Shown here one piece after another: positions 1 to 14,801 of a stretch of 45,398 nucleotides of DNA. Positions within the stretch are counted from its first letter, which is position 1, and the number at the start of each line of letters is the position of its first letter. The notes under the pieces are model-generated. The model was given only the letters and a program-made list of their open reading frames with translations, had not been told where the DNA came from and did no database searches. This DNA is from Schlesneria paludicola DSM 18645 (GTDB taxonomy: Bacteria > Planctomycetota > Planctomycetia > Planctomycetales > Planctomycetaceae), in NCBI GenBank assembly GCA_945862235.1, contig CAMAYU010000028.1:1-45398 (forward strand), given 5' to 3'. The position numbers were made by a program, and so were the translations under genes.

Positions 1-2087
1 CTCGTTCGCCAGCGGCCGATCGCGTCGAAGTTGTCGAAGGCGAAGCCCAGCGGGTCGATCTTCTGATGGCAGGAAGCGCAGGTGGCGTGGGTCGCGTGGG
101 CTTCGAGTTGTAAGCGGATCGTGGCCTTCGGCTGATTGCTTGGTGTCGGCGCGAGAGGTTCGACGTTTGGCGGCGGGGGGGGCGGCGTGCGGCCGAAGAT
201 TGCTTCCGAAACCCAGACGCCGCGATGCACCGGACGATGCCGCGTGCCGTCCGAAGTGAGCGAGAGAATGGAAGCGTGAGTCAGCAAACCGCCACGATGA
301 TCCTCGGCGCGGAGCAACATTTGCTGGAAGCCAGAGGCGGCCGGGCGCGGCAGGCCGTAATGCATCGCGAGGCGCGGATTCATCATCGTCCAATCGGAGA
401 CGAGGAACTCGCGGAGCGGCAGGTTCTTGGAAAAAACCTCACCGAAGTAGCCGGTCGTCTCCAACACCAGGCTCTGTTCGAGCCACTTATCGTAGTCGGG
501 GTAGAGGCTGGCATCGGGCGGGAACTGGCCGACGCGATGAAGCTGCAACCACTGACGCGGGAATGATTCCATGAATCGGCTGATCTTCGGATCGGCAAGC
601 ATCCGCGTCAGTTGGGCGCGGAGCACCTCGGGCTGTTGCAGCGTGCCTTGCCGTGCGAGGGCGAAGAGTTCGTCGTCGGGCATTGAGCTCCAGAGAAAAT
701 ACGAGAGTCGCGACGCGAGTTCCCAGTCATTGACTGTTTCGCGGCGCTGCGAGGTCGAGCCTTCTTCGAGATGGAAAAAGCTTTTTGATGTCAGCACGGC
801 GACCATTGCGGCTCGGAAGGCGGAACGGAAGTTCTCACCAGCCGTCAATTCGCTCTGGATGATTTTCAGAGCGCGATCAAGCTCCGCGTCAGTGACGGGT
901 CGTCGCCATGCGCGCATCGCGAATCGGCGCAGACATTCGCGAGCTTCAGTCAGGTCGCCATCCTTGGCGGGAATCAGCCCTTCGCGTTTCTTCTGGTCGG
1001 CTGCGGGCAAGATCGGGCCTTCGGTTTCCACCCAATCGACAATTAGCAGGGGAAAGATCAGTTGCCCTTCGTCGTTGAACAGTCGGTAGCCTGTCGGTCG
1101 GTTCTGGCGGCTGACTTTCGTGTTCACGAATGGGAATTGAGTGACGCTCGGAGTCTGGCCATCGGCCAGCATTCCAGGCGACTCGTTCATCACATTGAAG
1201 TTGCCTTCGGGCAGGAAGGTCTCGATCTCGATGACCGTCGGTTGGTCTTCGGCCGCGTTCACGTCCAAGCCGACGACCGAGCGTTTCAGTTGATGATGCC
1301 ACAGTGCGAGATGCGGCAGCCGGCCCTTAAAGGACGGGAGCGCACTGAGCTGGATTCGGATTCGATACAAGCCCGGAACGCTGGCGCTGACGAGGTGCTG
1401 ACCATGTCCCGGCCAGATCGGCCAGCGCACCGGCCCGGCCAAGCCCTGTTCCTGCAACCATTTTTCCTGGCCGGCGTTCGCTTCGCGCCGGCTCTTTTGG
1501 AATGCGGGCTGCTGATCGGGAAAGGCCCGCGCGAGCACCGTTTCGGCCGCGCCGAAGTAACGGTCCACATGCGACGGTGAAAGCGTCAGCAGCGAGCCGA
1601 TGCGATCGAAACCGTGCCAACGAGGGTCTTCGTTGAACGCTCCCGGCAGGTTCACGTCGAAATAGACGCCGAGCAGATCGTAGACGGTGTGACCGTATTC
1701 CTCGCGGCTCAGCCGATAGTGTGCGACGGGTCCGCGCTTCGCCATCCGCGCCGCTTCTCCCTCCTTGATCCGCGTGGAGAGCCAGTCAACCACCTGTCCG
1801 AGTTCTTGCGGTTTGGGCTGCGGCTCTTTCGTCGGCGGCATCTCGCCAGAGTTCAGGCGAAAGACGACCTCGCTCCAGCGTTGAGCAACCGCTTCATCGG
1901 CGAAGTCGCGCGACAAGGTGTCGAGCCGGAGTTTGCCTTCCTGCTTTTTCGCGTCGTGGCAGCGCAGGCAGTAAGTCTGAAAGAACGGTTGCACGGCCTT
2001 GTCGAACGCGGGCGATTCTTCAGCGGCCTGCACTTTTGCAGTGACGATGACGAGTGACAGAACAAATTGAGCGAGTCGGTATTTCAT
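1..2087 (-). CDS. DUF1592/DUF1588-type planctomycete cytochrome c protein, copy A (C-terminus cut by window edge)
   Basis: Reading the minus strand from the ATG at 2085-2087 gives an open frame of about 695 residues that runs off the left edge. It starts with a signal peptide (MKYRLAQFVLSLVIVTAKVQA), followed by a heme-binding CxxCH (C40-L-R-C43-H44) of the planctomycete cytochrome C (PSCyt1) type. DUF1587 (around 110-180), DUF1595/DUF1592 (around 400-560) and DUF1588 follow; DUF1588 includes the proline run FGRTPPPPPP and a second C-A-S-C-H near residue 672. The terminal DUF1585 domain lies outside the window. The protein is very close to copy C at 10451-12871 over its whole length, so the two are paralogues. 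It is probably an exported or periplasmic protein; the electron-transfer role is inferred from the heme motif, and the substrate is unknown. It follows Hyp-A on the same strand after a 95-bp gap that holds a hairpin. Confidence 0.93.
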   Translation of the reverse strand, partial: MKYRLAQFVLSLVIVTAKVQAAEESPAFDKAVQPFFQTYCLRCHDAKKQEGKLRLDTLSRDFADEAVAQRWSEVVFRLNSGEMPPTKEPQPKPQELGQVVDWLSTRIKEGEAARMAKRGPVAHYRLSREEYGHTVYDLLGVYFDVNLPGAFNEDPRWHGFDRIGSLLTLSPSHVDRYFGAAETVLARAFPDQQPAFQKSRREANAGQEKWLQEQGLAGPVRWPIWPGHGQHLVSASVPGLYRIRIQLSALPSFKGRLPHLALWHHQLKRSVVGLDVNAAEDQPTVIEIETFLPEGNFNVMNESPGMLADGQTPSVTQFPFVNTKVSRQNRPTGYRLFNDEGQLIFPLLIVDWVETEGPILPAADQKKREGLIPAKDGDLTEARECLRRFAMRAWRRPVTDAELDRALKIIQSELTAGENFRSAFRAAMVAVLTSKSFFHLEEGSTSQRRETVNDWELASRLSYFLWSSMPDDELFALARQGTLQQPEVLRAQLTRMLADPKISRFMESFPRQWLQLHRVGQFPPDASLYPDYDKWLEQSLVLETTGYFGEVFSKNLPLREFLVSDWTMMNPRLAMHYGLPRPAASGFQQMLLRAEDHRGGLLTHASILSLTSDGTRHRPVHRGVWVSEAIFGRTPPPPPPNVEPLAPTPSNQPKATIRLQLEAHATHATCASCHQKIDPLGFAFDNFDAIGRWRT

Positions 2088-2112
2088 AAAACTGGTCTCA
2101 GATCCTTTCATG

Positions 2113-2151
2113 CCATCGTTCTGCCAATTCCGGCGGGTGGCAGAACGATGG
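2113..2151. repeat. Perfect 14-bp hairpin downstream of Hyp-A
   Basis: Arms at 2113-2126 (CCATCGTTCTGCCA) and 2138-2151 are exact reverse complements around an 11-base loop. Part of the arm is repeated once more, directly, at 2153-2164. It sits in the 95-bp gap between the Hyp-A stop and the start of cytochrome copy A. It may be an intrinsic or processing hairpin or a dispersed repeat; no clear T-tract is seen. Confidence 0.75.
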
Positions 2152-2182
2152 GGGCAGAACGATGAAGACTCCTCTGCTGAGT

Positions 2183-3373
2183 TCAGGGCAGACTGAAAAC
2201 AGCCGATCGCTTCTGCTCTTCAATCGTCTTCAATCGTTCTTCCGACGGCATGGTCACGAAGAGCCAATCATGGCACTTCACGCGCACTGCTCGACCCGGG
2301 CGATAGCCGTCGAGCAATTCCGTGAACTTCAGGCGGACCTGAATGCCGCTGCTGCCGGGAGGCGGGTTCTCGGCTTCCTTCCACTCGATCACCTGGCCGA
2401 TCTTCTTGTCGCTACGGTGAAACCAGGTGCGCAGCGACTTCTCGGCGACGGCCACACCGAAGCCTTTTTCCTGAGTCGCTTTCAACTCGGCATACAGCGA
2501 CGGGTCCATGCCGCCAAACAACGTGAGCGTCACGGTGCCGCCACCGAAGTCGTTGTCTTCGACGGAGTCGATCCAGCCGGGAAGCCAACGCTGTTTCTGA
2601 TACTTCACATGACGGCGTCGCTGGAGATCGGTTGCGAACTTTCGGCTGTCGTCATCGAGCCAGATTTCCGAGACCTTGAATTCCTTGTCTCGCCAACCGG
2701 GCGACCAGCCGAGATTGAACTGCACGACTTGCTCGGGCGCGATGTCCGCCAGATCAACCAGCGTACGGCCTTTCCAGACCTTCGTGACGTCCTCGATGTC
2801 GAAGGTGTAGGGCGTGTTGATGCCGTCCTTGGCCATTTGGCCCGACGGTGCCACGTTGATTTTGCCTTTGTTGGCGTCGATCGACACCACCTGCCAACTC
2901 TGGCCACGCCGCTGATAGAAACTGAAATCGTCTTCCAACGAGACGGCGTGATTGTGCTTGAGCTGGAATTGCTCCATGTCCTTCGGCAGCGGTGGGATCG
3001 TGGATTCCTCGCCAACCGGCGGCACGTAGAAGTAGCCATGTACATGAGTGCCGATCGGAACGTCGCGCAGTTCCGCCGGAGCCCCGTTAAGCCAGATCAT
3101 GCCGTAGGGGAGCATGGCAAAATAATGGAGTGGGCCAGCGTGATAACGTTCCCCACCATCTCCATCCAACCGCAAGCCACCCCGGCGATTGACGGGGTCC
3201 ACGATCACCAGTTCGCCCGCGAGGTAGGTGCCGGTATTCGGCAGCGGAAACTTACCCGGTTGAAGGACATGGTCTGCCGCAACTTGAGCTTGCAAGAGCG
3301 AGCCGAACGGCCCTGTCACACAGGTCAGGAACAGGAAAACCGTTAATCGTCGAGGGAAGCGTGTCATGGTCAT
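2183..3373 (-). CDS. Secreted protein of unknown function (Hyp-A), paralogue of 9234-10394
   Basis: The 396-residue product begins with a signal peptide (hydrophobic run LTVFLFLTCVTGPFGSLLQA), so export is likely. I recognise no named domain. Residues about 50-115 (GKFPLPNTGTYLAGELVIVD, then a PYGMIWLNGAPAELRDVPIG stretch) alternate hydrophobic and polar residues like a small beta-barrel. A similar pattern recurs in the middle (VVSIDANKGKINV ... VWKGRTLVDLADIAPEQVVQ) and again near DSVEDNDFGGGTVTLTLFGG. This suggests three diverged OB-like units, which is inference. The start codon overlaps the stop of the upstream DUF1552 gene in an ATGA at 3370-3373, indicating translational coupling. A second in-frame ATG lies two codons downstream. 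The close paralogue Hyp-B sits in the mirrored position of the cluster. Confidence 0.88.
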   Translation of the reverse strand: MTMTRFPRRLTVFLFLTCVTGPFGSLLQAQVAADHVLQPGKFPLPNTGTYLAGELVIVDPVNRRGGLRLDGDGGERYHAGPLHYFAMLPYGMIWLNGAPAELRDVPIGTHVHGYFYVPPVGEESTIPPLPKDMEQFQLKHNHAVSLEDDFSFYQRRGQSWQVVSIDANKGKINVAPSGQMAKDGINTPYTFDIEDVTKVWKGRTLVDLADIAPEQVVQFNLGWSPGWRDKEFKVSEIWLDDDSRKFATDLQRRRHVKYQKQRWLPGWIDSVEDNDFGGGTVTLTLFGGMDPSLYAELKATQEKGFGVAVAEKSLRTWFHRSDKKIGQVIEWKEAENPPPGSSGIQVRLKFTELLDGYRPGRAVRVKCHDWLFVTMPSEERLKTIEEQKRSAVFSLP

Positions 3374-4680
3374 GAACTTTCAAAACCGCTCAACGCCCCT
3401 GTGCTGGACGCGAACTTATCAGTCTCGGCACCCATGCGACGCAGCATGGATACAAAGAGATTGGCCAACGGAGTGTTGTCATCGCGTTTGAAGGCGAGAT
3501 GCTGACCGTGTTTGAATCCGCCGCCGGCGAGCAGGATGGGGAGGTTGGTGTTGTCGTGGGTGTTGGAGTCTCCCATGTTGCTGCCGTAGAGGATCATCGT
3601 ATGGTCAAGCAGTCGCTGCTCGCCGTCGCGTTTGGTGGCGAGGCTTTTCAGGATCTTTTGCAAGAGGGTCATCTGTTGATGATCAGCGTCTTCGAGCTGC
3701 TTCACTTTGTCGGCGGCCTGGCCATGGTGGCTGAGATTGTGGTAGCCGTCGGTGGTGTTCTGATCGGAGTGGAGCTTGAAAACGGGTGTGGCGAAGGCAT
3801 CCACCATGAGCGTGACGATGCGTGTGGAGTCGGATTCGAGCGCAAGCTGCGCCATCGACAGCATCAGGTCAAACTTCTCGAAGAACAGCTTTTGATCCTG
3901 AATGTCGGCGGGTGGCGGCTGGATTGTCGTGGGCTTCGGGCGCTGTTCCCAGGCACGGGCGATTTGCAGGCGTTCTTCGAGCTCGCGCACGGAGGTAAAG
4001 TACTGATCGAGCCGCGCTTTGTCGTCGTTGCCAAGGTCGCGGCTGAACTGCCTGGTTTCATCGAGCAACGTGTCGAGGATGCTGCCGCGTTCGTCGAGCC
4101 GGTGGAGTTGTTCCTGCACCGAAGCGGGGTCGCCTTGGACGAACATCTTCTGAAACAACGCGGGCGCGCTGTCCTCGGCGGGCAGCAGGACGCCATCGCG
4201 GGTCCAAGAGAGGCTGCGGTTGGCTTTATCGATGTTGACGCCAAGATTCAGCGTGGGGAATCGCGTGACTGGACCAAGCCTTTCGGCGGCGAACTGGTCG
4301 AGCGAGATCTGATTCCGGAAGCCGCTTTTCGTGGGGCCGCGTGCGGCGGTGAGGAAGCAATTCTCGGTACTGTGCCCGCCGACCACGCCGGGATGTGAAA
4401 GGCCGCTGAAGACGGTGAAGTCGTTGCGGAACTCGGCGAGCGCGGCGAGGTAGGGCGAGAGTTCGTAATCACGTCCGGCTGTTTGTGGGAAGAACGGCTT
4501 CGGCAGCACACCGAGGTTGTTGGAGATGAGCAGCATTCGCGGCGGCGGCTGCAAGTCTGCGGCACGCGCCAAGACCGGCGTCATGCACTCCAGCCACGGC
4601 AGCGCGAGTATGGCTCCCGCACCGCGCAGGAATCGGCGGCGTGAGAAACGCGATGAGGTGGAGACGTTTGGAGCGTTCAT
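3370..4680 (-). CDS. DUF1552 protein, Tat-exported (copy A)
   Basis: The product has 436 residues from the ATG at 4678-4680. This start lies 4 bp after the stop of the upstream cytochrome gene and places a twin-arginine signal (SRRRFLRGAGAILALPWLEC) at the N-terminus. An upstream extension in the same frame to 4833 would overlap that cytochrome and is rejected. The rest matches DUF1552: the RMLLISNNLGVLPKPFFP region, the HSTENCFLTAA segment, and a conserved C-terminal block (YGSNMGDSNTHDNTNLPILL followed by AGGGFKHGQH). In this phylum DUF1552 genes are characteristically found beside DUF1592-type cytochromes, as here. The fold is often compared with sulfatase/DUF1501-like proteins, but no activity has been assigned. 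The gene overlaps Hyp-A by 4 bp. Confidence 0.93.
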   Translation of the reverse strand: MNAPNVSTSSRFSRRRFLRGAGAILALPWLECMTPVLARAADLQPPPRMLLISNNLGVLPKPFFPQTAGRDYELSPYLAALAEFRNDFTVFSGLSHPGVVGGHSTENCFLTAARGPTKSGFRNQISLDQFAAERLGPVTRFPTLNLGVNIDKANRSLSWTRDGVLLPAEDSAPALFQKMFVQGDPASVQEQLHRLDERGSILDTLLDETRQFSRDLGNDDKARLDQYFTSVRELEERLQIARAWEQRPKPTTIQPPPADIQDQKLFFEKFDLMLSMAQLALESDSTRIVTLMVDAFATPVFKLHSDQNTTDGYHNLSHHGQAADKVKQLEDADHQQMTLLQKILKSLATKRDGEQRLLDHTMILYGSNMGDSNTHDNTNLPILLAGGGFKHGQHLAFKRDDNTPLANLFVSMLRRMGAETDKFASSTGALSGFESS

Positions 4681-4684
4681 GGCG

Positions 4685-7207
4685 TTATTGGCATCCCGCT
4701 TCACCGAGGAAGATTTTGCTTTGCACGAGAGCGAGCACCAGATCGCGCACGCGGTAACCATTGCCAGCGCAGGCATCGAGCATCGTTTCGATTTCACGTC
4801 GGTCGGCGAAACGAACGGGTGTGCCGGTGGCATAGAGGGTGAACTGATGAAGCAGGTTGCGGGCGAGCTGGCGGGGATTGGACCCGACGATGGTTTTCAG
4901 ATCGCGAATGTTTTGGAAGGTGCGGCCATCGAGGAGTTTTCCGCTCGCATCGACGGGCTCGGAAATGGTGTAGGCGAAATCATGGCCGGCGCGGTCGATG
5001 CCGGTGATGCGTTCGCCTTGCTCGATTCCGCGATAGCGGGTGCGCCAGCCACCGAGGATGTCGAAGTTTTCGAGTGCGAGGCCCACGGCATCGAAACGGG
5101 CGTGGCAGGCGGCGCAGGATTTGGACTTGGTGTGCAGCGCGAGCAGATCGCGGATGGTTTTGGCACCGCGAATGTCGGGCTCGACGGCAGGGACGCTCGT
5201 CGGCGGTGGCGGTGGTGGTTCGCCGATGAGGCGATCCATGATCCAGGCACCGCGCACTACGGGCGAGGTGGCGGTGCCGTTGGAGGTGACTTTCAAAATC
5301 GCGGCCTGCGTGAGCAATCCGCCGAGCGGACTGTCCTGCGGCAGCGCGACCTTGCGCATCGCGGAACCGCTCAGCGGTTGGAGCCGGTAGTGCTGCGCGA
5401 GGCGATCGTTGGCAAAGATGAAGTCGGCATCGACAAGCACGCGGGCGGGCAGATTGTCGCGAATCATCGCGGTGACGAAGGTGCGCGTTTCCAGCTCCAG
5501 CGACTCAACGAGGTAGTCGTCGAAGCGATACTCGGGATAGAGGCGAATGTCCGGTTCGTCGCGGCGCACATGTCGGAGATTGAGCCAGTAGTCGGTGAAG
5601 TTCTTCACGAAACGTTCGAAGCCGCCGCTGGCGATGAGACGCTCGGTCTCGCGGTGAAGTGTCTTGGCATCGCGGAGTTGTCGGGAACGAGCCGCTTCGA
5701 GCAGCGTGGCATCGGGACGCGAGTTGGTGAGAAAGTGCGAGAGTCGTGAAGCGATGGCGAAGTGATCGTCGGCGCGATCGGGCTCGCGCAGATATAGGAA
5801 GTGGGTGGAGCAGAGGAAGGCCTTGTAGCCAGCCAGCATCCCCTCGGCAAAAGGCGAATTCTTATCGAGCCGGGTGAGGATGAGCTGCTCGAACTTCTGC
5901 AGGGCTTCATCCGGTACGGGTTCGCGTGCGGCGTGGTTCACGAAGCGACGCAGCAGTCGTTTCACGTCCTCCCTGGGCTGCGGGGATGACGCTTCCACGC
6001 CGAGATCATCAAACAGCACACGATGCGACGGCGGCGGCCATGTCTCCGATGAGATGGGGCCTTCGACTTCGAGCCATTGAAAAGCGACGCCGGACTGCCC
6101 GCCGTCGGGAAACGGTGGATAACGATAGGTTGGCGGGCCACCTTGGACGTTGCGAGCGAGCGGCACGGGGAGACCGAGCAGGCTGTACTCAAAGGTCTCA
6201 CGCTCGCGCAGGCGGATGGTAGTTTCATACGTCGCGACGGCGGGCTGAATGTCGATGATACCGCCGGTGGCGCGGACATCGCCGGAGACATCGGGACCGG
6301 ATGGTTTACGGGCGCGGAAGGTCATCGGCACCGGCTGCAAGGCGGGTTTGAGTTCGTAGCCACTGATCTGCAAGACGGCACGGGCGGAGAAACGCACCTT
6401 GTATTCGCCCGGCAGTTTGGCGACGAATCCCCTTGGGTAACCGTAGTAGGGCCAGTGGGCGGAGCGAAAGAGCGCGAGTTCGAGTGCGGGATCGTCGCGC
6501 AAGGCATCGAGTTGTTTCGGATCGACGGCTTTGTTGTCTTTCGCGAAGAACATCGCCTCGCGTTCGCCGAAGGTCGAATTTTCCGGGAATAGACTTGTGC
6601 CCACGGCGCGGAACTTCGTCACGGGCGGCGGATTGGCTCCGCCGGCCATCGCTTGACGCAGTGCGGCCTCGGCGGCATCGAGATAGGCCATGAGTTGCAC
6701 GCGCGACATGTCGAGCGTTTCGGAGGTCTTGTTGAAGTGGTGCCCTTCGCGGTCCTCCGGGATCATGTCGCGAATATCGAGGAGCGGCAGTTGCAATACG
6801 TCGCGAAGGTTCTGCTCGTACTCATCGCGGTTCAGCCGCCGCATCGGGCCGCGGCCGTGAGTGACGATCTCAGCGTGGTCCGCATCGTGGATCGCCATCG
6901 CAAGGTGCTTCACCAACTCCGCGCGCCGTGCCTGCGGAAGGTCTTCGTCCTGCGGCGGCATCTCGCCCTTTTCGATGCGGTCGTGAATGCGAATCCACCG
7001 GCCACGGGTGGCGTGATCGTGGAGCTCGAACGGCAATGCAACGAGATCGAGTCCGCCCTCAGCGGTCTTCTCGTCATGGCACTCGAAGCAGGTCCGTTTG
7101 AGGAGCGGCGCAAGCGTCGGAGGCAGGCCATCCTCGGCCGCGTGCAACACGGCCAACGGAGCCAGCAGCAGGGCGGTAAAGATGAGGGTGAGGACGGAAA
7201 ACTTCAC
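4685..7207 (-). CDS. DUF1592/DUF1588-type planctomycete cytochrome c protein, copy B
   Basis: This is a large exported protein with a signal sequence (FSVLTLIFTALLLAPLAVLHA), a heme CxxCH (RTCFECHDEK), DUF1587 (PMRRLNRDEYEQNLRDVLQL), DUF1595/1592, DUF1588 (PPPPPPTSVPAVEPDIRGAK, then SCAACHARFDAVGLALENFD), and DUF1585 at the end (GNGYRVRDLVLALVQSKIFL). I chose the GTG at 7205-7207 (840 residues). It has an AAGG Shine-Dalgarno 7 bases upstream and puts the heme cysteines at 40 and 43, as in copy A. ATG starts at 7258 or a start at 7318 are possible but would add an unusual N-terminal leader. This copy is clearly more diverged than A and C are from each other. DUF1552-A begins 4 bp after its stop, so the two are surely co-expressed. 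Confidence 0.92.
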   Translation of the reverse strand: MKFSVLTLIFTALLLAPLAVLHAAEDGLPPTLAPLLKRTCFECHDEKTAEGGLDLVALPFELHDHATRGRWIRIHDRIEKGEMPPQDEDLPQARRAELVKHLAMAIHDADHAEIVTHGRGPMRRLNRDEYEQNLRDVLQLPLLDIRDMIPEDREGHHFNKTSETLDMSRVQLMAYLDAAEAALRQAMAGGANPPPVTKFRAVGTSLFPENSTFGEREAMFFAKDNKAVDPKQLDALRDDPALELALFRSAHWPYYGYPRGFVAKLPGEYKVRFSARAVLQISGYELKPALQPVPMTFRARKPSGPDVSGDVRATGGIIDIQPAVATYETTIRLRERETFEYSLLGLPVPLARNVQGGPPTYRYPPFPDGGQSGVAFQWLEVEGPISSETWPPPSHRVLFDDLGVEASSPQPREDVKRLLRRFVNHAAREPVPDEALQKFEQLILTRLDKNSPFAEGMLAGYKAFLCSTHFLYLREPDRADDHFAIASRLSHFLTNSRPDATLLEAARSRQLRDAKTLHRETERLIASGGFERFVKNFTDYWLNLRHVRRDEPDIRLYPEYRFDDYLVESLELETRTFVTAMIRDNLPARVLVDADFIFANDRLAQHYRLQPLSGSAMRKVALPQDSPLGGLLTQAAILKVTSNGTATSPVVRGAWIMDRLIGEPPPPPPTSVPAVEPDIRGAKTIRDLLALHTKSKSCAACHARFDAVGLALENFDILGGWRTRYRGIEQGERITGIDRAGHDFAYTISEPVDASGKLLDGRTFQNIRDLKTIVGSNPRQLARNLLHQFTLYATGTPVRFADRREIETMLDACAGNGYRVRDLVLALVQSKIFLGEAGCQ

Positions 7208-7382
7208 GTTGAACCTTGTCTGTCCGAAGTGCGTCACACGGTAAGTGAAGAGCTCCATCGACGGCGGCCCTTGGAACTGTTCTCTGTGCAACGTCCGATG
7301 ATCATGGGACGAAGTCACATCAGCCGCAAACGCCCGCGTACGATTGCCGACTGACGGTAGTGGTACAGTTTGAAATCCGTGG

Positions 7383-7586
7383 TCAGTCGTGGGGAGCGTG
7401 TTCTTTCGGTTTCTTGAGCCACTTGTACGCGGCGACGCTGCCCCAAACCGGGAACGTCAGACAGAGTGCCGGAATTACGAGAAAGGCCCAAGTAATGACG
7501 ATCACGAAAAGCCCCAACCATTTTGGAATCTCACCACGCTCCATTCGTTGATAAATCAGCGGCACTCTTGGTTTGAATTCAGCCAT
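7383..7586 (-). CDS. Small membrane protein of unknown function (67 aa), inside the TIR-flanked element
   Basis: The 67-residue frame starts at the ATG 7584-7586. A longer version to 7673 would run through the hairpin and is less likely. It reads as a plausible small membrane protein: a soluble N-terminus (MAEFKPRVPLIYQRMERGEI), a hydrophobic stretch of roughly 35 residues (WLGLFVIVITWAFLVIPALC and on) that could form one or two helices, and a basic tail (YKWLKKPKEHAPHD). I know no family for it. It lies entirely between the terminal inverted repeats of the 7356-7724 element and ends 5 bp before the inner edge of one of them. It is either cargo of that element or a fortuitous ORF. Confidence 0.5.
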   Translation of the reverse strand: MAEFKPRVPLIYQRMERGEIPKWLGLFVIVITWAFLVIPALCLTFPVWGSVAAYKWLKKPKEHAPHD

Positions 7587-7626
7587 CAAGTCGTCATCCC
7601 TTGGCTGCAGCGCCGGTAAATGAACA

Positions 7627-7649
7627 CGCCCCGGTTTATCGCCGGGGCG
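7627..7649. repeat. Perfect 8-bp GC-rich hairpin
   Basis: CGCCCCGG at 7627-7634 pairs exactly with CCGGGGCG at 7642-7649 around a 7-base loop. It lies downstream of the DUF1552-B stop and inside the TIR-flanked element, upstream of the small membrane ORF. It could reduce read-through from the upstream operon; no strong T-run follows. Confidence 0.55.
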
Positions 7650-7781
7650 GTTCTCGTTTGCAATCAATGTCACGCCGCCATGACGGCATCGTACAGGTCT
7701 TCGATTTCAAGCTGTACCACTACCCGACTGACGGCGAACGCAGGGCAAATCAGACGCTCGTGCGGTTCGCCTGCTTCCGAA

Positions 7782-9152
7782 CTACGTCACGATCTCCGAA
7801 ACATTGCCGTTGCTGTCGGCAAATTTTTCCGTCGGCACGTCCATCTTCTGAGCCATCGTCAGCAGCAGGTTGCTGAGATACGCCTTGCTGTTCACCGGGC
7901 TGTGGCAGATGGCGTAGTGTTTCGCCGGATTGTCCAAGTCATACGCATAGCCTTCTGGCTTCGACTTGGCGTTGTAGTCGATGTGCCGGCCGTGTTTGAT
8001 TCCCAGTCCGCCGCCACCGGCGAGAATCAGCGGGAGGTTCGCGTTGCCGTGGCTGTGTCCGAATGCCATGCCGCTGCCATAGAGGGCCATCGTCGAGTCG
8101 AGCAGCGGGCCATCCGCGTCGCGCACTTCGCTGAGCCGGCCGAGGAAGTAGCTGAACTGCTGGACGTTGAACGTATCGCTCGCCGTCAGATCCTGCATCA
8201 GCTTGGGATTCGCGTTGTGGTGCGACAGTGAATGGCGATCCTGCTTCACGCCGATCTCGGGAACCGACGGGCCGTTGCCTTCGTTGCCGGTGCTGAATGT
8301 CGCCACGCGGGTCATGTCGGTCTGGAATGCGAGGACGATGATGTCGTACATGGTGCGGAGATACTCGCCGAGCCGCTCCAGCGAGATATCGCGATTCAAC
8401 CGCGACTGGTCGGCGGGATCGACTTTGGGGCGAGGCGTGTCGAGCCATTTGTCCGCGCGCCCGGTCCGAATCTCGACCTCGCGCACCGATGTCAGATACT
8501 GTTCCAACCGGCCGCGATCCTCCTGACCGAGTTGATCGCCGAGCGACCGGGCTTCACCGAGAATCGCATCGAGAATGCTGCCTCGTCGTTGCAGGCCCCG
8601 ACGCTGTTTGGCGATCCCACCTTGTGGTTCCGTGAACATATCCCGAAACACGACGCCGGGATTCCCCTGCGCCGGCAACCCGATGCCATCGGCGGTGTAC
8701 GCGAGCGAGTGTCCCTGGTTGCTCATTTCGATCGACGAGTAGCGCGTGAGCGGCGCGGTCACCTGGGCCATGAGTTGATCGACCGAGATGGTGTTCCGTT
8801 CCGACTGCCCGATCTTGCCGCCGGTCAGCCAAATGCTGCTGCAGTTGTGGTGATGCCCCAGGCCATGCGGATGATGCAGGCCGCTGATCGGCGTGATGTT
8901 CGCGCGGTGCTTCTCGAGCGGCTTCAGTGACTTCGAAAACGCGTAGTCCGCGCCAGCCTGAGTGATCTGAAAGTCGATCGTATTCACACCGTTGGGCAGG
9001 TAGATGAACACGCTCCGCTTGGCTCGCGACTTGGCTTCCGCCGCGCGTAGCGGACGCATGCAGTCGAGCAGCGGCAGCGCGAGTGAAACCCCGAGTCCGC
9101 GCAACACGTGCCGGCGATTGAGAAGCCAATTCTGAGAAAGGAAGTGAGCCAT
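7782..9152 (-). CDS. DUF1552 protein, Tat-exported (copy B)
   Basis: The product has 456 residues from the ATG at 9150-9152, chosen because a GGAG lies about 9 bases upstream; an ATG five codons earlier (9167) is the alternative. The N-terminus carries a twin-arginine signal ([20 protein letters not shown]). DUF1552 features follow: [16 protein letters not shown], the [16 protein letters not shown] block, and the conserved C-terminal [20 protein letters not shown] with [13 protein letters not shown]. It is a paralogue of copy A, clearly diverged but with the same block order. It follows Hyp-B on the same strand by 81 bp. It is inferred to be exported folded through Tat and to act with the neighbouring cytochromes; no biochemical function is known. 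Confidence 0.93.
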
Positions 9153-9233
9153 TGTTCGGTGCTCCATTGAGAATTGTGTTTCGCGGTGGTCATTTCATTT
9201 GCAAATCAGCCGGATTTCGCCACGCAGAAAGGA

Positions 9234-10394
9234 TCACCGGTCGTCGAAAGAGTTCACTCGTTCTTCGGGAGGGAGTTTCACGTTGGGAAAGCCGTTGGGC
9301 CGGAAGCGGATGATTCGCCCGGCGCGATAGCCTTCCAGCAGACGCGTAAATTGCACTCGCAATTGTAACCCACTACTGCCCGGCGGTGCGTCGGGGATAT
9401 CTTTGAAATCGAGCACGGGGCCATTCCTCGAATCGTGTTCCTGCCACCAGGATCGCAACGTCCATTCCGCCGCGGCAACCGATGCTCCTCCGCCCGGTTT
9501 GGCCTGCGCGCGGGCTGCGTCATACAGGGAGGGATCCATGCCGCCAAAGAGGGTCAACGTCACGATTCCCTTGCCACCCGGCTGATGTTCGACATGATCG
9601 ACCCAGCCGGCGAGCCAGCGCGTTCGCTGATGGCGGATGTGGATCTGACGTTGTCTCTCGCGGGCGACATCGCGGGCTTCCTGGTCGGTCCAAACGTCGG
9701 CCACGTGGAATTTTCCGTTCTTCCAATCGGGTGTCCAAGTCAGGTTGAGCTGCACGTTCTGGTCGGGTGACAGATCCTTGAGTTCACCAAACGCCCGCCC
9801 TTTCCACACGCGCGTGCTTGCATCAATCTCGAACGACTGTTCGCCTTTCAATCCCGCAGTGACTTGCTGACCATCGGAGCTGACTTTGAACGCTCCCTTG
9901 CTGGCATCAACGGCCTCAATCTTCCACGTCTGTCCCTGCCGTTCGTAGAAACTGAAATCATCTTCCAAGGTGAGGGCCTGTGTCTGTTTGGGGACGTACT
10001 TGGACGAATTCTTTTCCGGCGGTGGGAAATCGGTGATGCCCTCCACAGGCAAGAGGAACATTCCATGCAGCACGGTCCCAAGGGGAACATCCCGCAATTC
10101 CGCGGGCGCGCCGTGGTAACGCACCGTGCCATAAGGAAGCAGCGCGAAACGATGGCTGGGGGCGGAGTGATACCGACCATCGTCGTTGTCGCCGATCAAG
10201 CGAAGGGCACCACGGCGATTGACGTGATCGACCGACACGAGTTCGCCGGCGAGATAAACACCCGCACCAGTGGCCGGAAACTTGCCGGGCATCGGCACGA
10301 CATCGTTCTCGCCGGCGGACAGCCGTTGTGTGCCGATCAGCATGATCAGAGCAACCAGCTTGATGCCCGACAGTGTACATCGAGACGTCGTCAT
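9234..10394 (-). CDS. Secreted protein of unknown function (Hyp-B), paralogue of Hyp-A
   Basis: The product has 386 residues from the ATG at 10392-10394, which has an AAGG about 9 bases upstream and directly precedes a signal peptide (SGIKLVALIMLIGTQRLSAG). The upstream start at 10442 would add a non-signal leader. It aligns with Hyp-A over its whole length: PMPGKFPATGAGVYLAGELV, YHGAPAELRDVPLGTVLHGM, RVWKGRAFGELKDLSPDQNV, LTLFGGMDPSLYDAA and a C-terminal GSSGLQLRVQFTRLLEGYRA. No described domain is recognised. The gene sits between a DUF1592-type cytochrome upstream and a DUF1552 gene downstream, which makes it a probable third component of that module. Confidence 0.88.
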   Translation of the reverse strand: MTTSRCTLSGIKLVALIMLIGTQRLSAGENDVVPMPGKFPATGAGVYLAGELVSVDHVNRRGALRLIGDNDDGRYHSAPSHRFALLPYGTVRYHGAPAELRDVPLGTVLHGMFLLPVEGITDFPPPEKNSSKYVPKQTQALTLEDDFSFYERQGQTWKIEAVDASKGAFKVSSDGQQVTAGLKGEQSFEIDASTRVWKGRAFGELKDLSPDQNVQLNLTWTPDWKNGKFHVADVWTDQEARDVARERQRQIHIRHQRTRWLAGWVDHVEHQPGGKGIVTLTLFGGMDPSLYDAARAQAKPGGGASVAAAEWTLRSWWQEHDSRNGPVLDFKDIPDAPPGSSGLQLRVQFTRLLEGYRAGRIIRFRPNGFPNVKLPPEERVNSFDDR

Positions 10395-10450
10395 CACGAT
10401 TGACCTTTCGTTAACCGGAAGCAATCGGAGCGATTGCGTCACAACTTCAA

Positions 10451-12871
10451 TTACCGCTTTTGAAACAAGTCCGACAGGACCAGATTCTCGATGACATCGC
10501 GGAGCCGGTAACCGTCCTTCTTGCTCGCCTGGACGATCGCCTTGATCTGTCCGGCATCATCGATCGTCATCACGCGCCGTAGAGCGTAGGTTGCCAGTTG
10601 CTCGACGAACGACTCGGCGAAGCGATCGAGATCCTCGATCAACAGTTTGCGAAAGTCGTCTGATCCTTTGAACGCCCGGCCATCGGGCAACACTCCGCTG
10701 GCATCGACGGGAGGATTCGCACCACTTCCGCCCACCACCCGCTCCTCCGTCCGATAACCGCCGATCGCGTCGAAGCTGTCGAACGCGAAACCGAGCGGGT
10801 CGATCTTCTGGTGACAGGACGCACAGGTGGCATGCGTCGCGTGTGCCTCAAGCTGCATGCGGATCGTCGCCTTCGGCTTGTTGCTGGGAGTCGGTGCCAG
10901 CGGTTCGACATTCGGCGGAGGTGGCGGCGGGGTCCGACCAAAGATCGTTTCCGACACCCACACGCCTCGATGGACCGGCCGATGCCGAGTGCCATCCGAA
11001 GTCAGCGAGAGGATTGATGCCTGCGTGAGCAGACCACCCCGATGATTCTCGGGACGCAGCGTGACTTTCTGGAAGCCCGTTTGCGCGAGAGGCGGCAGGG
11101 TGTAATGAGTCGCCAACCGTGGATTGACCATCGTCCAGTCGGAGTCGAGAAACTCGCGCAACGAGAGATTCTGCGAGTAGACCTGCTGGAAGAACTCCAG
11201 CGTCTCCAGCGTCATGCTCTTCTCCAGCCATTTGTCATATTCGGGATAGAGGCCGGGATCGGGCGGGAACATGCCGACGCGGTGCAGTTGCAGCCACTGC
11301 CTAGGGAATGCCTCGGTGAATCGCCGACCCTTGGAATCAGTCAGCATGCGGGCGACTTGACCACGCAGTACATCGGGTTTGGCGAGTGTGCCGGATTGAG
11401 CCGCTGCCACCAACTCGTCGTCGGGCATCGAACTCCAGAGAAAGTACGACAGCCTGGAGGCGAGTTCCCAATCGTTGACCGTGGTGCGTTTTTCGTGAGC
11501 GGACCCTTCTTCGAGGTAATAGAAGTTCTTCGAAGTCAGGATGGCGACGAGGCCGGCGCGATAAGCTGGGCCGAGTGTTTCGCCCGCCTTCAGTTCGCTC
11601 TCCACGATCGTGACGTAGCGCTCGGCTTCCGCATCGATCGCGGGGCGTCGCCAGGCACGCGTGGCGAACTGTTTCAGGCGGGCTTGGATCTCGCTCGGAT
11701 CGAACTCCGTCGCAGCGGGATTCACCGGGAAGACGCCGTCTCGTTTCTTTTGATCCGCCTCCGTGACGATCGGGCCTTCCCACTCAATCCAGTCGACCAG
11801 CAACATCGGATAGAGCGGCTCGCCGGCATCGGTGAAAAGCATGTAGCCGGTCGGGTTGATCCAGCGTGAGTCGCGGGAACTGGTGAAGAGGCTGCCGCCG
11901 CCATGAGTCACATTGGCGGTGTGATCGCCTTCGCCCTCTTGGAGAAACGCACCGGCCACCTCGTTGACCAACTGGAATCCGCCCGGCGACAAGCCGGATT
12001 CAAACTCAACAACGATCGGCTTGTCTTCCGGGGCCAGAATGTCCTGATCGAAGATGGACTTTTTCAACTGTTGATTCCAGATCGACAGATGCGGCGCCGG
12101 ACCCTGCGGCGGTGCCATGCCACTCAACTGGATGCGGACCCGATAGTTTCCCGGCTGCGAGATATTCATCAGATGCTCGCGGCGTCCGGGAAACAGCCGC
12201 CAGCGCACGTTCCCGGTGATCTTGTGCTCCGCCATCCATTGCTCACGCCCCTGGCCGGCCTCGCGCCGAACGGTTGTGGACTTCGATTGCTGTGCGGGGA
12301 ATGCAAGATCGAGCACCGTTTCGGCCGCACGGAAGTAACGGTCGACATGCGACGGCGAAAGCGACAGCAACGAGCCGATGCGATCGAAGCCATGCCAACG
12401 CGGGTCTTCGTTGAACAGCCCCGGCTGGTGGACGTCGAGGTAGACGCCGAGCAGATCGTGGACCGTGTGGCCATATTCCTCGCGGCTGAGTCGGTAATGC
12501 GAGACCGGACCGCGCTGGGCCATCCGCGCCGATTCGCCTTCTCTGATTCGCGTCGATAGCCAATCGACGACCCTGCCCAGTTCGTCGGCCTTCGGCTGCG
12601 GTTCCTCTTTCGGCGGCATCTCGCCCGAGTTCATCCGAAACACCACCTCGCCCCAACGCTGTGCCGCGGCTTGATCGACAAACTCGCGCGGCAGCGTATC
12701 GAGCCGGAACTTCCCTTCCTGCTTCTGCGCATCATGACAACGCAGGCAGTACGTCTTGAAAAACGGTTGAACCTGTTGATCGAATCCAACAGGCTCCGCG
12801 GCAAAGCACTTGCCCGCGAACACGGAGAGGACTGTCGTCAACAGGGCGAGGAATATCGTCTGCCGTTTCAT
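10451..12871 (-). CDS. DUF1592/DUF1588-type planctomycete cytochrome c protein, copy C
   Basis: The product has 806 residues from the ATG at 12869-12871, directly before a signal peptide (MKRQTIFLALLTTVLSVFAG). The longer frame to 12964 would overlap the upstream LRR gene and lacks a leader-like sequence. The domain order is PSCyt1 heme motif (C42-L-R-C45-H46), DUF1587 (SHYRLSREEYGHTVHDLLGV), DUF1595/DUF1592 (SRLSYFLWSSMPDDELVAAA), DUF1588 (FGRTPPPPPPNVEPLAPTPS, CASCHQKIDPLGFAFDSFDA), and DUF1585 at the C-terminus (KKDGYRLRDVIENLVLSDLF). It is strikingly similar to copy A and gives an idea of what that truncated gene lacks. It begins 43 bp after the LRR gene stop and is followed by Hyp-B after 56 bp. 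Confidence 0.95.
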   Translation of the reverse strand: MKRQTIFLALLTTVLSVFAGKCFAAEPVGFDQQVQPFFKTYCLRCHDAQKQEGKFRLDTLPREFVDQAAAQRWGEVVFRMNSGEMPPKEEPQPKADELGRVVDWLSTRIREGESARMAQRGPVSHYRLSREEYGHTVHDLLGVYLDVHQPGLFNEDPRWHGFDRIGSLLSLSPSHVDRYFRAAETVLDLAFPAQQSKSTTVRREAGQGREQWMAEHKITGNVRWRLFPGRREHLMNISQPGNYRVRIQLSGMAPPQGPAPHLSIWNQQLKKSIFDQDILAPEDKPIVVEFESGLSPGGFQLVNEVAGAFLQEGEGDHTANVTHGGGSLFTSSRDSRWINPTGYMLFTDAGEPLYPMLLVDWIEWEGPIVTEADQKKRDGVFPVNPAATEFDPSEIQARLKQFATRAWRRPAIDAEAERYVTIVESELKAGETLGPAYRAGLVAILTSKNFYYLEEGSAHEKRTTVNDWELASRLSYFLWSSMPDDELVAAAQSGTLAKPDVLRGQVARMLTDSKGRRFTEAFPRQWLQLHRVGMFPPDPGLYPEYDKWLEKSMTLETLEFFQQVYSQNLSLREFLDSDWTMVNPRLATHYTLPPLAQTGFQKVTLRPENHRGGLLTQASILSLTSDGTRHRPVHRGVWVSETIFGRTPPPPPPNVEPLAPTPSNKPKATIRMQLEAHATHATCASCHQKIDPLGFAFDSFDAIGGYRTEERVVGGSGANPPVDASGVLPDGRAFKGSDDFRKLLIEDLDRFAESFVEQLATYALRRVMTIDDAGQIKAIVQASKKDGYRLRDVIENLVLSDLFQKR

Positions 12872-12914
12872 CCCGAACTCTTCTCCGTAAACATCGTTTG
12901 CCATAGCGGAACAG

Positions 12915-14801
12915 TCATTGTGATTGAATGACCAACTCAGGGCGAGCCTTGCGAAGCTGTTCAACGCCGGCAGGAGTGACGTTTCTCAGGCCGCTCAGCG
13001 ACAGCTTCTTCAGCGACTTCGAAGAAGCCAGCGACTGGAGTCCCGCGTCCGTGATTTGAGCACTGCCGAGTTTGAGTTCTTCCAGCTTCGGCATCTGGGC
13101 CACCAGCGGCATCGAATCGTCATTGACCGTGGGAGCGTGGGAAACATCGAGTCGGCGCAGTGTGGCAATCTTGGCCGCGTGGGCCAGGCCGACGGGCGTG
13201 GCTTGATTGTCGAGCAACGCAAGGTCTTCGAGTGGTAACTTCGTCAACGCGGCGACCGCTTCGCCGGTGCTCGCGTTGTTCGCGCTGCCGATGCCGCAGC
13301 GTTTCAGTTGCGTCAGGGCCGCCAGGTGGGCGGCTCCCGCGTCGGTGAACCGCGTATGGGCGAACCACAACCGGTCAGAAATCGGGACTTGTGTGATCGC
13401 CTGTAACCCGGCGTCGTTGAGCGGCGTGAAATGAAAGTTGACGCTCTCCAGTTTGCGAAGAGCCTTCAGATGCCTGAAGCCGGTGCCGGTACACTGCGTT
13501 GACGCCAGACCGAGCGACCGCAATTCCGTCAGTCCCGCGAGATGCCTCAGCGCGTCATCGGTCACGGGAGTCAAAGTCAGGTTGAGTTCACGTAGTCCGG
13601 TCAGTGCGGCGATGTGCTGCAAGCCTTCGCCTTGAATGGCACAGTTCGCCAGATCGAGTCTTCGCAGAGTCGCAAGGCTCGTGAGCCGCTTGAGCCACTC
13701 GTCGGTGACCCGCTCGTTGCGTCCGCCTTTGCCCTTGAGTGGATTGTTGCCGTTGTACAGATCGATCGCGGCGGGTACGTCGAAGATCTCAGTGCCAACG
13801 TCGCCCGTCGCCAGATAAAGCCACTGCGGGCCGCCCGGCGTGCAGACCAGCTTCCCGCCGATGTCTTTGATCTCTGCCTCCAACGCGAGCGTGCTGCGCC
13901 GCACCTTCGCCGCCCGTTCAATCTCCGGCAGCAGGGCGACAAGTTTGCCTTGCAGGTTCTGGTCGGACACCTTTGCAATGAGGGTCCCACGGTCCACCGT
14001 TTCTTCGATCGAGAGGATCTGCGTCAGCAACGCTGTGTCCGCAGAAGTTGTCGTCAATTGAGCCAGTACGCCGTCCAGATACTGCTTGACCATGGGGTCG
14101 AGTTTGTCGAACCCGTCCGCGGAGAACGCCTGTCCCAGCGCACGCCGCACCGCGTTGTGCGCCAGATACCTGCCGTGGCTGAGAGTCAGATGAATGTCGT
14201 CGCGATAGAGGTCTTCGAGTCGTTCGATGGGAGCCTGCTTCGCGGCGATGTCTTCGGCGATCTTCGCCAGCAGGTTCTGCGCGAGCGTCTGACGAATCTC
14301 ACGCTCCGGATGCAGCCGGCGCAACTCGGCAACGAGCGCGCGAAAATAGACCGGACTGTGCGTCATTTGCTCCGGCGGTGCGTAGCTCGCGAATTCTTCC
14401 GCCCGTTTCGCATGCCAGGCCCAGCCCGAATGAATGACGAAGACCGCTTTGGGTTGCAGCGTCATCCACCCCGAAATCGTTTCGACATCCTGCGTCAGCG
14501 TCGATCCGTAGTGGGGCTGCACGGAGACGACGTCGTATTGCTTGTCTCGCAGTGCCATCGGCCAACGCGTCGATTCTTTCACGCACGGCTTGTCAGGATG
14601 AGCATGGATGTACGGCAGGTTGACTCCACAATCGACGTGCCACTGCACATCGCCTGACAACCGCGGCGGTACGGTGTCCCAAGTCAGCGAATTGCCGATC
14701 AAGTAATAACGGGTTGACGTCGGCTCTTGTGCGAGGCCCTCGGCTCTCGCCGCGGCAGTGAGCATGGCACCCAAGAGCAAACGTGTGAGCCATCGCGTCA
14801 T
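12915..14801 (-). CDS. Secreted SGNH-hydrolase-like protein with C-terminal leucine-rich repeats
   Basis: The product has 628 residues from the ATG at 14799-14801, which precedes a signal peptide (MTRWLTRLLLGAMLTAAARA). The track-length frame to 15092 adds 97 residues without leader character and is not used. Residues 31-220 look like an SGNH/GDSL esterase: block I around G36-N37-S38 (YYLIGNSLT), a middle block (VVSVQPHYGSTL), and a late D201-x-x-H204 (RDDIHLTLSHGRYLA) that would complete the catalytic set. From about residue 350 a leucine-rich-repeat domain follows, with repeats such as LRELNLTLTPVTDDALRHLA and LEELKLGSAQITDAGLQSLA. The gene heads the minus-strand cluster. It is an exported esterase or deacylase candidate whose LRR could bind a partner or substrate; both roles are inferred. 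Confidence 0.85.
   Translation of the reverse strand: MTRWLTRLLLGAMLTAAARAEGLAQEPTSTRYYLIGNSLTWDTVPPRLSGDVQWHVDCGVNLPYIHAHPDKPCVKESTRWPMALRDKQYDVVSVQPHYGSTLTQDVETISGWMTLQPKAVFVIHSGWAWHAKRAEEFASYAPPEQMTHSPVYFRALVAELRRLHPEREIRQTLAQNLLAKIAEDIAAKQAPIERLEDLYRDDIHLTLSHGRYLAHNAVRRALGQAFSADGFDKLDPMVKQYLDGVLAQLTTTSADTALLTQILSIEETVDRGTLIAKVSDQNLQGKLVALLPEIERAAKVRRSTLALEAEIKDIGGKLVCTPGGPQWLYLATGDVGTEIFDVPAAIDLYNGNNPLKGKGGRNERVTDEWLKRLTSLATLRRLDLANCAIQGEGLQHIAALTGLRELNLTLTPVTDDALRHLAGLTELRSLGLASTQCTGTGFRHLKALRKLESVNFHFTPLNDAGLQAITQVPISDRLWFAHTRFTDAGAAHLAALTQLKRCGIGSANNASTGEAVAALTKLPLEDLALLDNQATPVGLAHAAKIATLRRLDVSHAPTVNDDSMPLVAQMPKLEELKLGSAQITDAGLQSLASSKSLKKLSLSGLRNVTPAGVEQLRKARPELVIQSQ

Follow-up and report, generated by a model that had tools for sequence, protein, structure and literature searches.

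Between two co-directional minus-strand genes in the stretch of planctomycete DNA analysed here (45,398 nt; hereafter the window) lies a short interruption with inverted ends and a single small open reading frame, and the question is what inserted there, by what machinery and with what cargo. Positions 7356–7724 were confirmed to be a 369-bp insertion. It is very probably a non-autonomous IS1-type element placed between two planctomycete gene modules, and the reading as a mobile insertion cassette is preferred over that as a plain MITE. The features involved are:

4685–7318, minus strand: flanking gene, planctomycete PSD/PSCyt protein (DUF1585, 1587, 1588, 1592, 1595)
7348–7355, no strand: left copy of the target site duplication (TSD), 8 bp, CGACTGAC
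7356–7377, plus strand: left terminal inverted repeat (TIR), GGTAGTGGTACAGTTTGAAATC
7383–7586, minus strand: cargo ORF, 67 codons including the stop, ATG start, one predicted membrane helix
7597–7602, minus strand: Shine-Dalgarno-like AAGGGA, 10 nt before the ATG, found by eye
7622–7653, minus strand: predicted leader hairpin, terminator-like, GAACCGCCCCGG-CGATAAA-CCGGGGCGtGTTC, conserved at other sites in the genus
7670–7705, minus strand: putative C-terminal remnant of an IS1-type transposase, IEDLYDAVMAA and stop, its first codon overlapping the right TIR
7703–7724, minus strand: right TIR, GGTAGTGGTACAGCTTGAAATC (minus-strand reading)
7725–7732, no strand: right copy of the TSD, 8 bp, CGACTGAC
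7782–9167, minus strand: flanking gene, DUF1552 (HXXSHH)

The TIRs and target duplication proposed in a preliminary description of this DNA are real. The arms, each of 22 nt, are complementary at 21 of 22 positions (95%), and their pattern (≤3 mismatches) matches the window at just these two places; 100 dinucleotide shuffles gave no match. The exact 8-bp CGACTGAC is best taken as the target duplication. A longer direct repeat, CCGACTGACGG, is present at 7347–7357 and 7724–7734, and a 10-bp duplication with ends at 7357 and 7723 had been offered as an option; this is unneeded, since the duplications beside other elements with these ends are 8 bp long, the sole 9-bp case (L064) being one of 27 exact duplications from at least 118 stretches scanned. 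The GC content of the element is 0.534, compared with 0.604 for the window. Further copies in the same genome had been suggested as a check, and neither a DNA search nor the TIR pattern found a second copy in the 6.83-Mb, 377-contig assembly. A query with the transposase of the complete element L044 (see below) found no IS1-type transposase there either. With neither an autonomous partner nor a second copy found in this assembly, mobility in this host is without support, and so is the earlier description of the element as active. The opposite possibility raised there, that of a 67-aa gene conserved in place with TIRs found nowhere else, does not fit the data: none of the 14 other genomes of the genus matched the 67-aa protein, and the TIR was present in 17 others of 170 genomes.

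These ends belong to a family of IS1-type ends. Within the taxonomic family, 18 of 170 genomes, the element's own included, contain the 22-bp end (≤3 mismatches), at 31 places in all, whereas the reversed control gave 4. When the whole phylum was searched with an 18-bp TIR query (≤1 mismatch), 5 of 392 genomes matched, again including its own, and exact matches to the end pattern occurred in several other phyla among the matches listed. Ends of the same type, with 8-bp duplications, bound complete IS1-type elements of 2.1–4.4 kb, and they are also found on transposase-less elements in relatives and in other phyla. Exact 8-bp duplications with paired ends were seen at L012 (699 bp), L017 (122 bp), L022 (394 bp), L034 (120 bp) and L036 (111 bp), and paired ends without a duplication at L029; L042, with an exact 8-bp repeat but poor ends (7 mismatches), was left uncounted. 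Scanning genome contigs (genome_contigs) for the pattern GGTAGTGGKWCAGYTTGA gave at least 118 stretches, of which at least 32 had a TIR pair with a duplication, 27 of them exact, at sizes from 68 bp to 4.4 kb. In ten of the 32, among the matches listed, a match covers most of the transposase, and the transposase frame of L149 seems interrupted. An end-independent scan (193 loci, with 10 overlapping ones omitted and at least one element still counted twice) required inverted ends of at least 15/20. Pairs starting with GG were tallied by duplication lengths of 5, 6, 7, 8, 9, 10 and 11 bp, giving 2, 1, 1, 18, 0, 0 and 0 loci, respectively. The corresponding counts for pairs with any start were 19, 9, 4, 20, 2, 4 and 1, so that a chance background is visible at the short lengths. 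The earlier proposal of transposition is thus backed by the TIRs, by the exact 8-bp TSD and by complete IS1-type elements that have ends of this kind.

IS1 ends start with GG and IS1 duplications are 8–9 bp long; the ends and the 8-bp duplication of the window element agree with this, and its ends are common to elements that encode an IS1-type transposase. Two such complete elements, L044 (4022 bp, AGATTCGG, 292-aa transposase) and L048 (3468 bp, AATTGCAG, 288-aa transposase), have exact 8-bp TSDs and carry passengers, and both transposases exceed the Pfam IS1 cut-off (PF03400). NCBIfam IS1 is their top NCBIfam match, at 61 bits for L044 and 46.5 bits for L048, below its equivalog cut-off of 100, and we therefore use the label 'IS1-type' rather than strict IS1 membership. 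Because their elements are 2.1–4.4 kb long with passengers and their transposases score below that cut-off, the relatives form a distant IS1 subgroup, which may be ISMhu11-like.

The interior of the element has no transposase frame, as first described, and just the C-terminal tail appears to be left. Read along the minus strand, the right end leads directly into ATC-GAA-GAC-CTG-TAC-GAT-GCC-GTC-ATG-GCG-GCG-TGA. Comparison with relatives strongly indicates that this segment, 7670–7705, is an IS1-type transposase tail: the L044 transposase ends in ...LWKIEDLYDAVMG followed by its stop, a pattern common to some of its subgroup, and 9 of the 11 codons in the tail match L044. A tail motif composed after inspecting both the window and L044 sequences had one match in six frames of the window, next to the TIR, and eight matches in 2.77 million control codons from other loci, real transposases being encoded at some of them. 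Similarity alone is insufficient here (tblastn, E = 2.3; the window tail was not reported by the transposase profile), and the call is made because motif, frame, stop and position combine.

Between the transposase tail and the ORF lies the predicted hairpin, the evidence for which is comparative. Its 19-nt core (≤2 mismatches) was found at 25 sites in 8 of 15 genomes of the genus, with none for the reversed control. When the 12-pair structure was applied to all 25 sequences, standard pairs made up 85.3%, compared with 78.4% in shuffles, and cells changed on both sides numbered 28, compared with 9.0. The number of pairs with two-sided change (5 versus 3.5 in shuffles) is not unusual, and it is the outer pairs that show the compensatory changes. 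By eye, some six of the 25 resemble ordinary terminators, and these were omitted from a second alignment of 19 rows. The 94-nt leader region has a local fold z-score of only −1.7; Rfam gave no match to 7300–7800 at E up to 1, and a scan for sigma-70 promoters found none. An IS1-type transposase tail precedes six of the 25 sites (five by profile, that of the window by motif). At the L271 site the frame upstream is integrase-like and exceeds the Pfam Phage_integrase cut-off; at the L254 site an integrase-like frame scores 23.1 bits, below that cut-off of 27.1. Others lie behind unrelated genes. A transposase-specific terminator was ruled out, as many leader loci have no detectable transposase tail. 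Ten hairpin loci were examined for a TIR pair with a TSD and nine had none, so that most such cassettes are not demonstrably bounded by ends. Several small membrane genes of the genus have the hairpin leader in common, some of them in tandem. The hairpin of the window is terminator-like on both strands, so it may damp read-through from the 7782–9167 gene towards the 4685–7318 gene.

The 67-codon membrane ORF noted originally is present on the minus strand, and its hydrophobic segment is strong (best 19-residue Kyte-Doolittle mean, 2.6). The ORF had no match in 98 relatives, among plasmids, phages and viral contigs, or in Pfam, NCBIfam, PHROGs and PADLOC, and its GC3 is 0.588, compared with 0.788 and 0.741 for its neighbours; for these reasons it could be a young or foreign gene, or no gene at all. 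A place in the FxGWRRK small-membrane family was not accepted (profile E = 0.07, score −0.2). The idea of a cargo gains from relatives that repeat the layout of transposase tail, hairpin and small membrane ORF. Two elements of the same genus have this order, one of 699 bp (L012/L255, TSD CCTACTTG) and one of 731 bp with another TIR (L005/L276, TSD CCTTGTTG). We infer that the ORF is expressed and that its product resides in the membrane.

The element had been described as splitting a tight minus-strand cluster. This is partly right: its flanks are co-directional, but the element separates two modules. The first consists of the PSD/PSCyt gene 4685–7318 and a DUF1552 gene at 3370–4833, homologues of which adjoin in five of five loci. 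The second consists of the DUF1552 gene 7782–9167, the gene at 9234–10442 and a PSD/PSCyt gene at 10451–12964. In six of eight loci the 7782–9167 homologue is beside homologues of both partners; in L220 it adjoins the 10451–12964 homologue alone, and in L205, which holds the closest homologue, it adjoins neither. None of the compared loci, which reach ∼1.5 kb per side, showed both modules. No empty site was found in the relatives' loci compared, where the intergenic DNA is unalignable; outside the window, the joined flanks match just a 28-bp and a 17-bp piece of these loci. The G013 homologue of 7782–9167 is 86% identical, with DNA similarity ending inside the gene and a different gene following, and homologues of 4685–7318 (from G010, G014, G006 and G013, and the paralogue in its own genome) can be aligned only within the gene. 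The listed GTG start of 4685–7318 at 7318 may be too far upstream, the similarity to its closest homologues starting between codons 35 and 66.

Three other accounts of the element were weighed. It might be a plain MITE, derived from an IS1-type element by internal deletion, with an open frame that arose by accident and a function that lies solely in its ends. Eighteen of the 32 paired-end stretches listed above measure 68–246 bp, which leaves little space for a gene, and 22% of the element's dinucleotide shuffles contained an ATG ORF of 67 codons or more; the missing homologues and low GC3 of the ORF also suit this account. However, when the ORF also had to have a hydrophobic segment, the share of shuffles fell to 0.9% for a mean of 1.6 or more and to none of 2000 for 2.5 or more, a Shine-Dalgarno-like site (by eye) precedes the ATG, and the relatives hold different small membrane ORFs behind their transposase tail and hairpin. 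An accidental frame is a possibility to be taken seriously, but we think it unlikely. Of the earlier reading as a MITE family with a cargo ORF, the cargo part is retained on the strength of the shared layout, while the MITE label gives way to that of a mobile insertion cassette, present as a single copy. In another account the mobile unit is the hairpin with its small gene, spread through the genus behind various recombinases, and IS1 ends merely captured one copy. The distribution of the hairpin core over the genus speaks for this, with its mixture of transposase tails, two integrase-like frames and unrelated genes upstream, and tandem small FxGWRRK genes follow the L254 site (in L290). Because 9 of the 10 hairpin loci gave no paired ends with a duplication, such a cassette would have no visible ends of its own, whereas the copy in the window has IS1-type ends exactly at its borders; in addition, the terminator-like appearance of some of the hairpins speaks against a common unit. 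We consider this account improbable.

The assignment of the ends to another family, such as IS1595, was also considered, as an 8-bp TSD is compatible with IS1595 and other families too. Part of the L044 transposase matches PF12762 weakly, below the cut-off, the full L044 protein scores 23.1 bits with NCBIfam IS1595, and L048 scores 31.4 bits with NCBIfam IS6, both again below cut-off. Against this, the two transposases of L044 and L048, taken in full, score above the PF03400 cut-off and have IS1 as their best NCBIfam match, at the sub-cut-off scores given above. The PF12762 domain is absent from the genome that carries the element, and no DDE_Tnp_IS1595 transposase was found in that genome or in relatives sharing the ends. 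An origin outside the IS1-type group is thus very improbable.

Under the preferred reading, a mobile insertion cassette of IS1 type, the ancestor would have been a passenger-bearing IS1-type element with GGTAGTGGTACAG ends and the order transposase, hairpin, small ORF. The complete element L044 has the same order, its hairpin being identified by eye and its small ORF being without a hydrophobic segment. An internal deletion would have removed the transposase gene except for its last codons, leaving one end abutting the tail. Both ends would then have been recognised by an IS1-type transposase acting in trans, and insertion of the 369-bp unit would have generated the 8-bp duplication. The unit would carry the 67-aa small membrane-protein gene behind the hairpin, which would probably insulate it by blocking incoming transcription from outside, or would terminate the upstream transcript.

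Elements of this kind are known. As described in passages of PMC3129680, mobile insertion cassettes (MICs) have IS ends and no transposase, may be activated by the transposase of a related IS, and are named alongside MITEs and solo IRs. The window element has IS ends, a TSD and no transposase, together with a passenger ORF that we take to be a gene. What is new with respect to known MICs is that the ends are of IS1 type, the membrane-protein cargo is very small, and the element keeps a putative transposase tail and a conserved leader hairpin. A transporter IS (tIS) is an IS with passenger genes, according to passages of PMC9330008 and PMC7986276. The complete relatives (L044, L048 and others), with transposase and passengers, are elements of this type, whereas the window element has lost the intact transposase of its own. 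With its 369 bp, TIRs, TSD and no transposase it resembles a MITE; it would differ in its probable gene, the 67-codon membrane ORF, and in a putative transposase remnant. MITEs are usually multicopy in a genome, whereas this element is single-copy. The likeness to IS1 (GG-starting ends, 8-bp duplication, relatives' transposases above the PF03400 cut-off) is set against relatives that are larger, carry passengers and fall below the NCBIfam IS1 equivalog cut-off. In a limited open-access literature search, no title or abstract opening among those listed described cassettes of a transposase tail and a membrane gene.

Small membrane ORFs were then sought behind other transposase fragments. The L044 transposase query gave matches in 36 of 170 family genomes: 21 full-length, 31 C-terminus-reaching fragments, two with the N-terminus only and six internal. 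Of the C-terminal fragments, 28 were kept and three dropped for short downstream sequence, two of which (L312 and L028) had a small membrane ORF. A fragment passed if the longest ATG ORF starting ≤450 nt downstream was ≤200 aa and had a hydrophobic segment, the membrane call being a simple hydropathy rule. Ten of the 28 passed, nine of them with the ORF start within 120 nt, whereas random sites in the same loci (n = 3505) gave 8.8% at 450 nt and 3.4% at 120 nt (binomial tails, 8e-5 and 2e-7, for fragments that are not fully independent, L045 and L280 carrying the same FxGWRRK family). The divergent upstream side of the fragments gave 2/28 and 1/28 at the two distances. Outside the genus, 5 of 20 fragments passed (binomial tail, 4e-4). 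Among the 28, L313 is a frame-broken near-full copy, and L298, L203 and L315 start near a contig end, which makes their 5' loss uncertain; none of these four is among the ten, and without them the count is 10/24. None of 19 full-length transposases was followed by a small membrane ORF (two of the 21 had no locus), a comparison limited by several elements ending just past the stop, so that a downstream ORF lies outside the element. Contigs from outside the family gave 1/10, with 4 of 14 dropped for short downstream sequence, one of which (L148) had a small membrane ORF; the pattern was thus not seen outside the family.

Some of these genes lie in tandem runs. In L277 (G007:C131:43500-49505), the transposase tail is present as a direct repeat in four places between 2977 and 5810 (78–152 bp, 87–93% identical), with different small ORFs behind the first three. 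In L045 (G012:C49:98000-106000), two cassettes lie head to tail at 4791–6316, in the order FHGWQRK gene, hairpin, transposase tail and then, at once, the end of an FRGWRRK-gene cassette. In L290 (G010:C11:1-5000), six FxGWRRK membrane-protein frames follow in a row by profile at 1111–3800, with a seventh, broken, by eye; the run lies behind an integrase-like frame scoring below the Pfam cut-off. By eye, the beginning of L290 suggested a tRNA, but ARAGORN found none and the idea was dropped.

A wider reading can be put forward tentatively, although we consider it unlikely: in this planctomycete family, dead IS1-type transposase tails would be launching sites for small membrane genes. Short hydrophobic genes might be captured, or born de novo, behind the tail and its hairpin, which would serve as their leader and terminator; transposition between surviving IS ends would spread these genes, and recombination between the repeated tails would build up tandem runs. 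In this view the 369-bp element would be a minimal case, still bounded by its ends. Few bacterial genes are as poorly understood as those for orphan small membrane proteins, and a vehicle (IS1-type ends and an 8-bp duplication), a scar (the transposase tail) and a leader hairpin would allow the origin and spread of such genes in planctomycetes to be traced. A single-copy 369-bp element, invisible to copy-number searches, is here tied to a transposon family present in several phyla.

The elements with IS1-type transposases also carry other passengers. One of 77–105 aa with the motif GRLGGLKGGKARA or a variant recurs in L048, L091, L098, L103, L149 and L161, from several phyla. L044 (2514–4142) encodes a 542-aa passenger with a match to HATPase_c_4 and a sub-threshold match to Schlafen AlbA_2, which also matches the PADLOC pAgo model. 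Parts resembling toxin–antitoxin systems were seen in L173 (4622–6084), where a HigB-like toxin is followed by an HTH/IrrE-like protein, and in L103 (2751–3887), which has an HTH passenger with a sub-threshold IrrE-like match.
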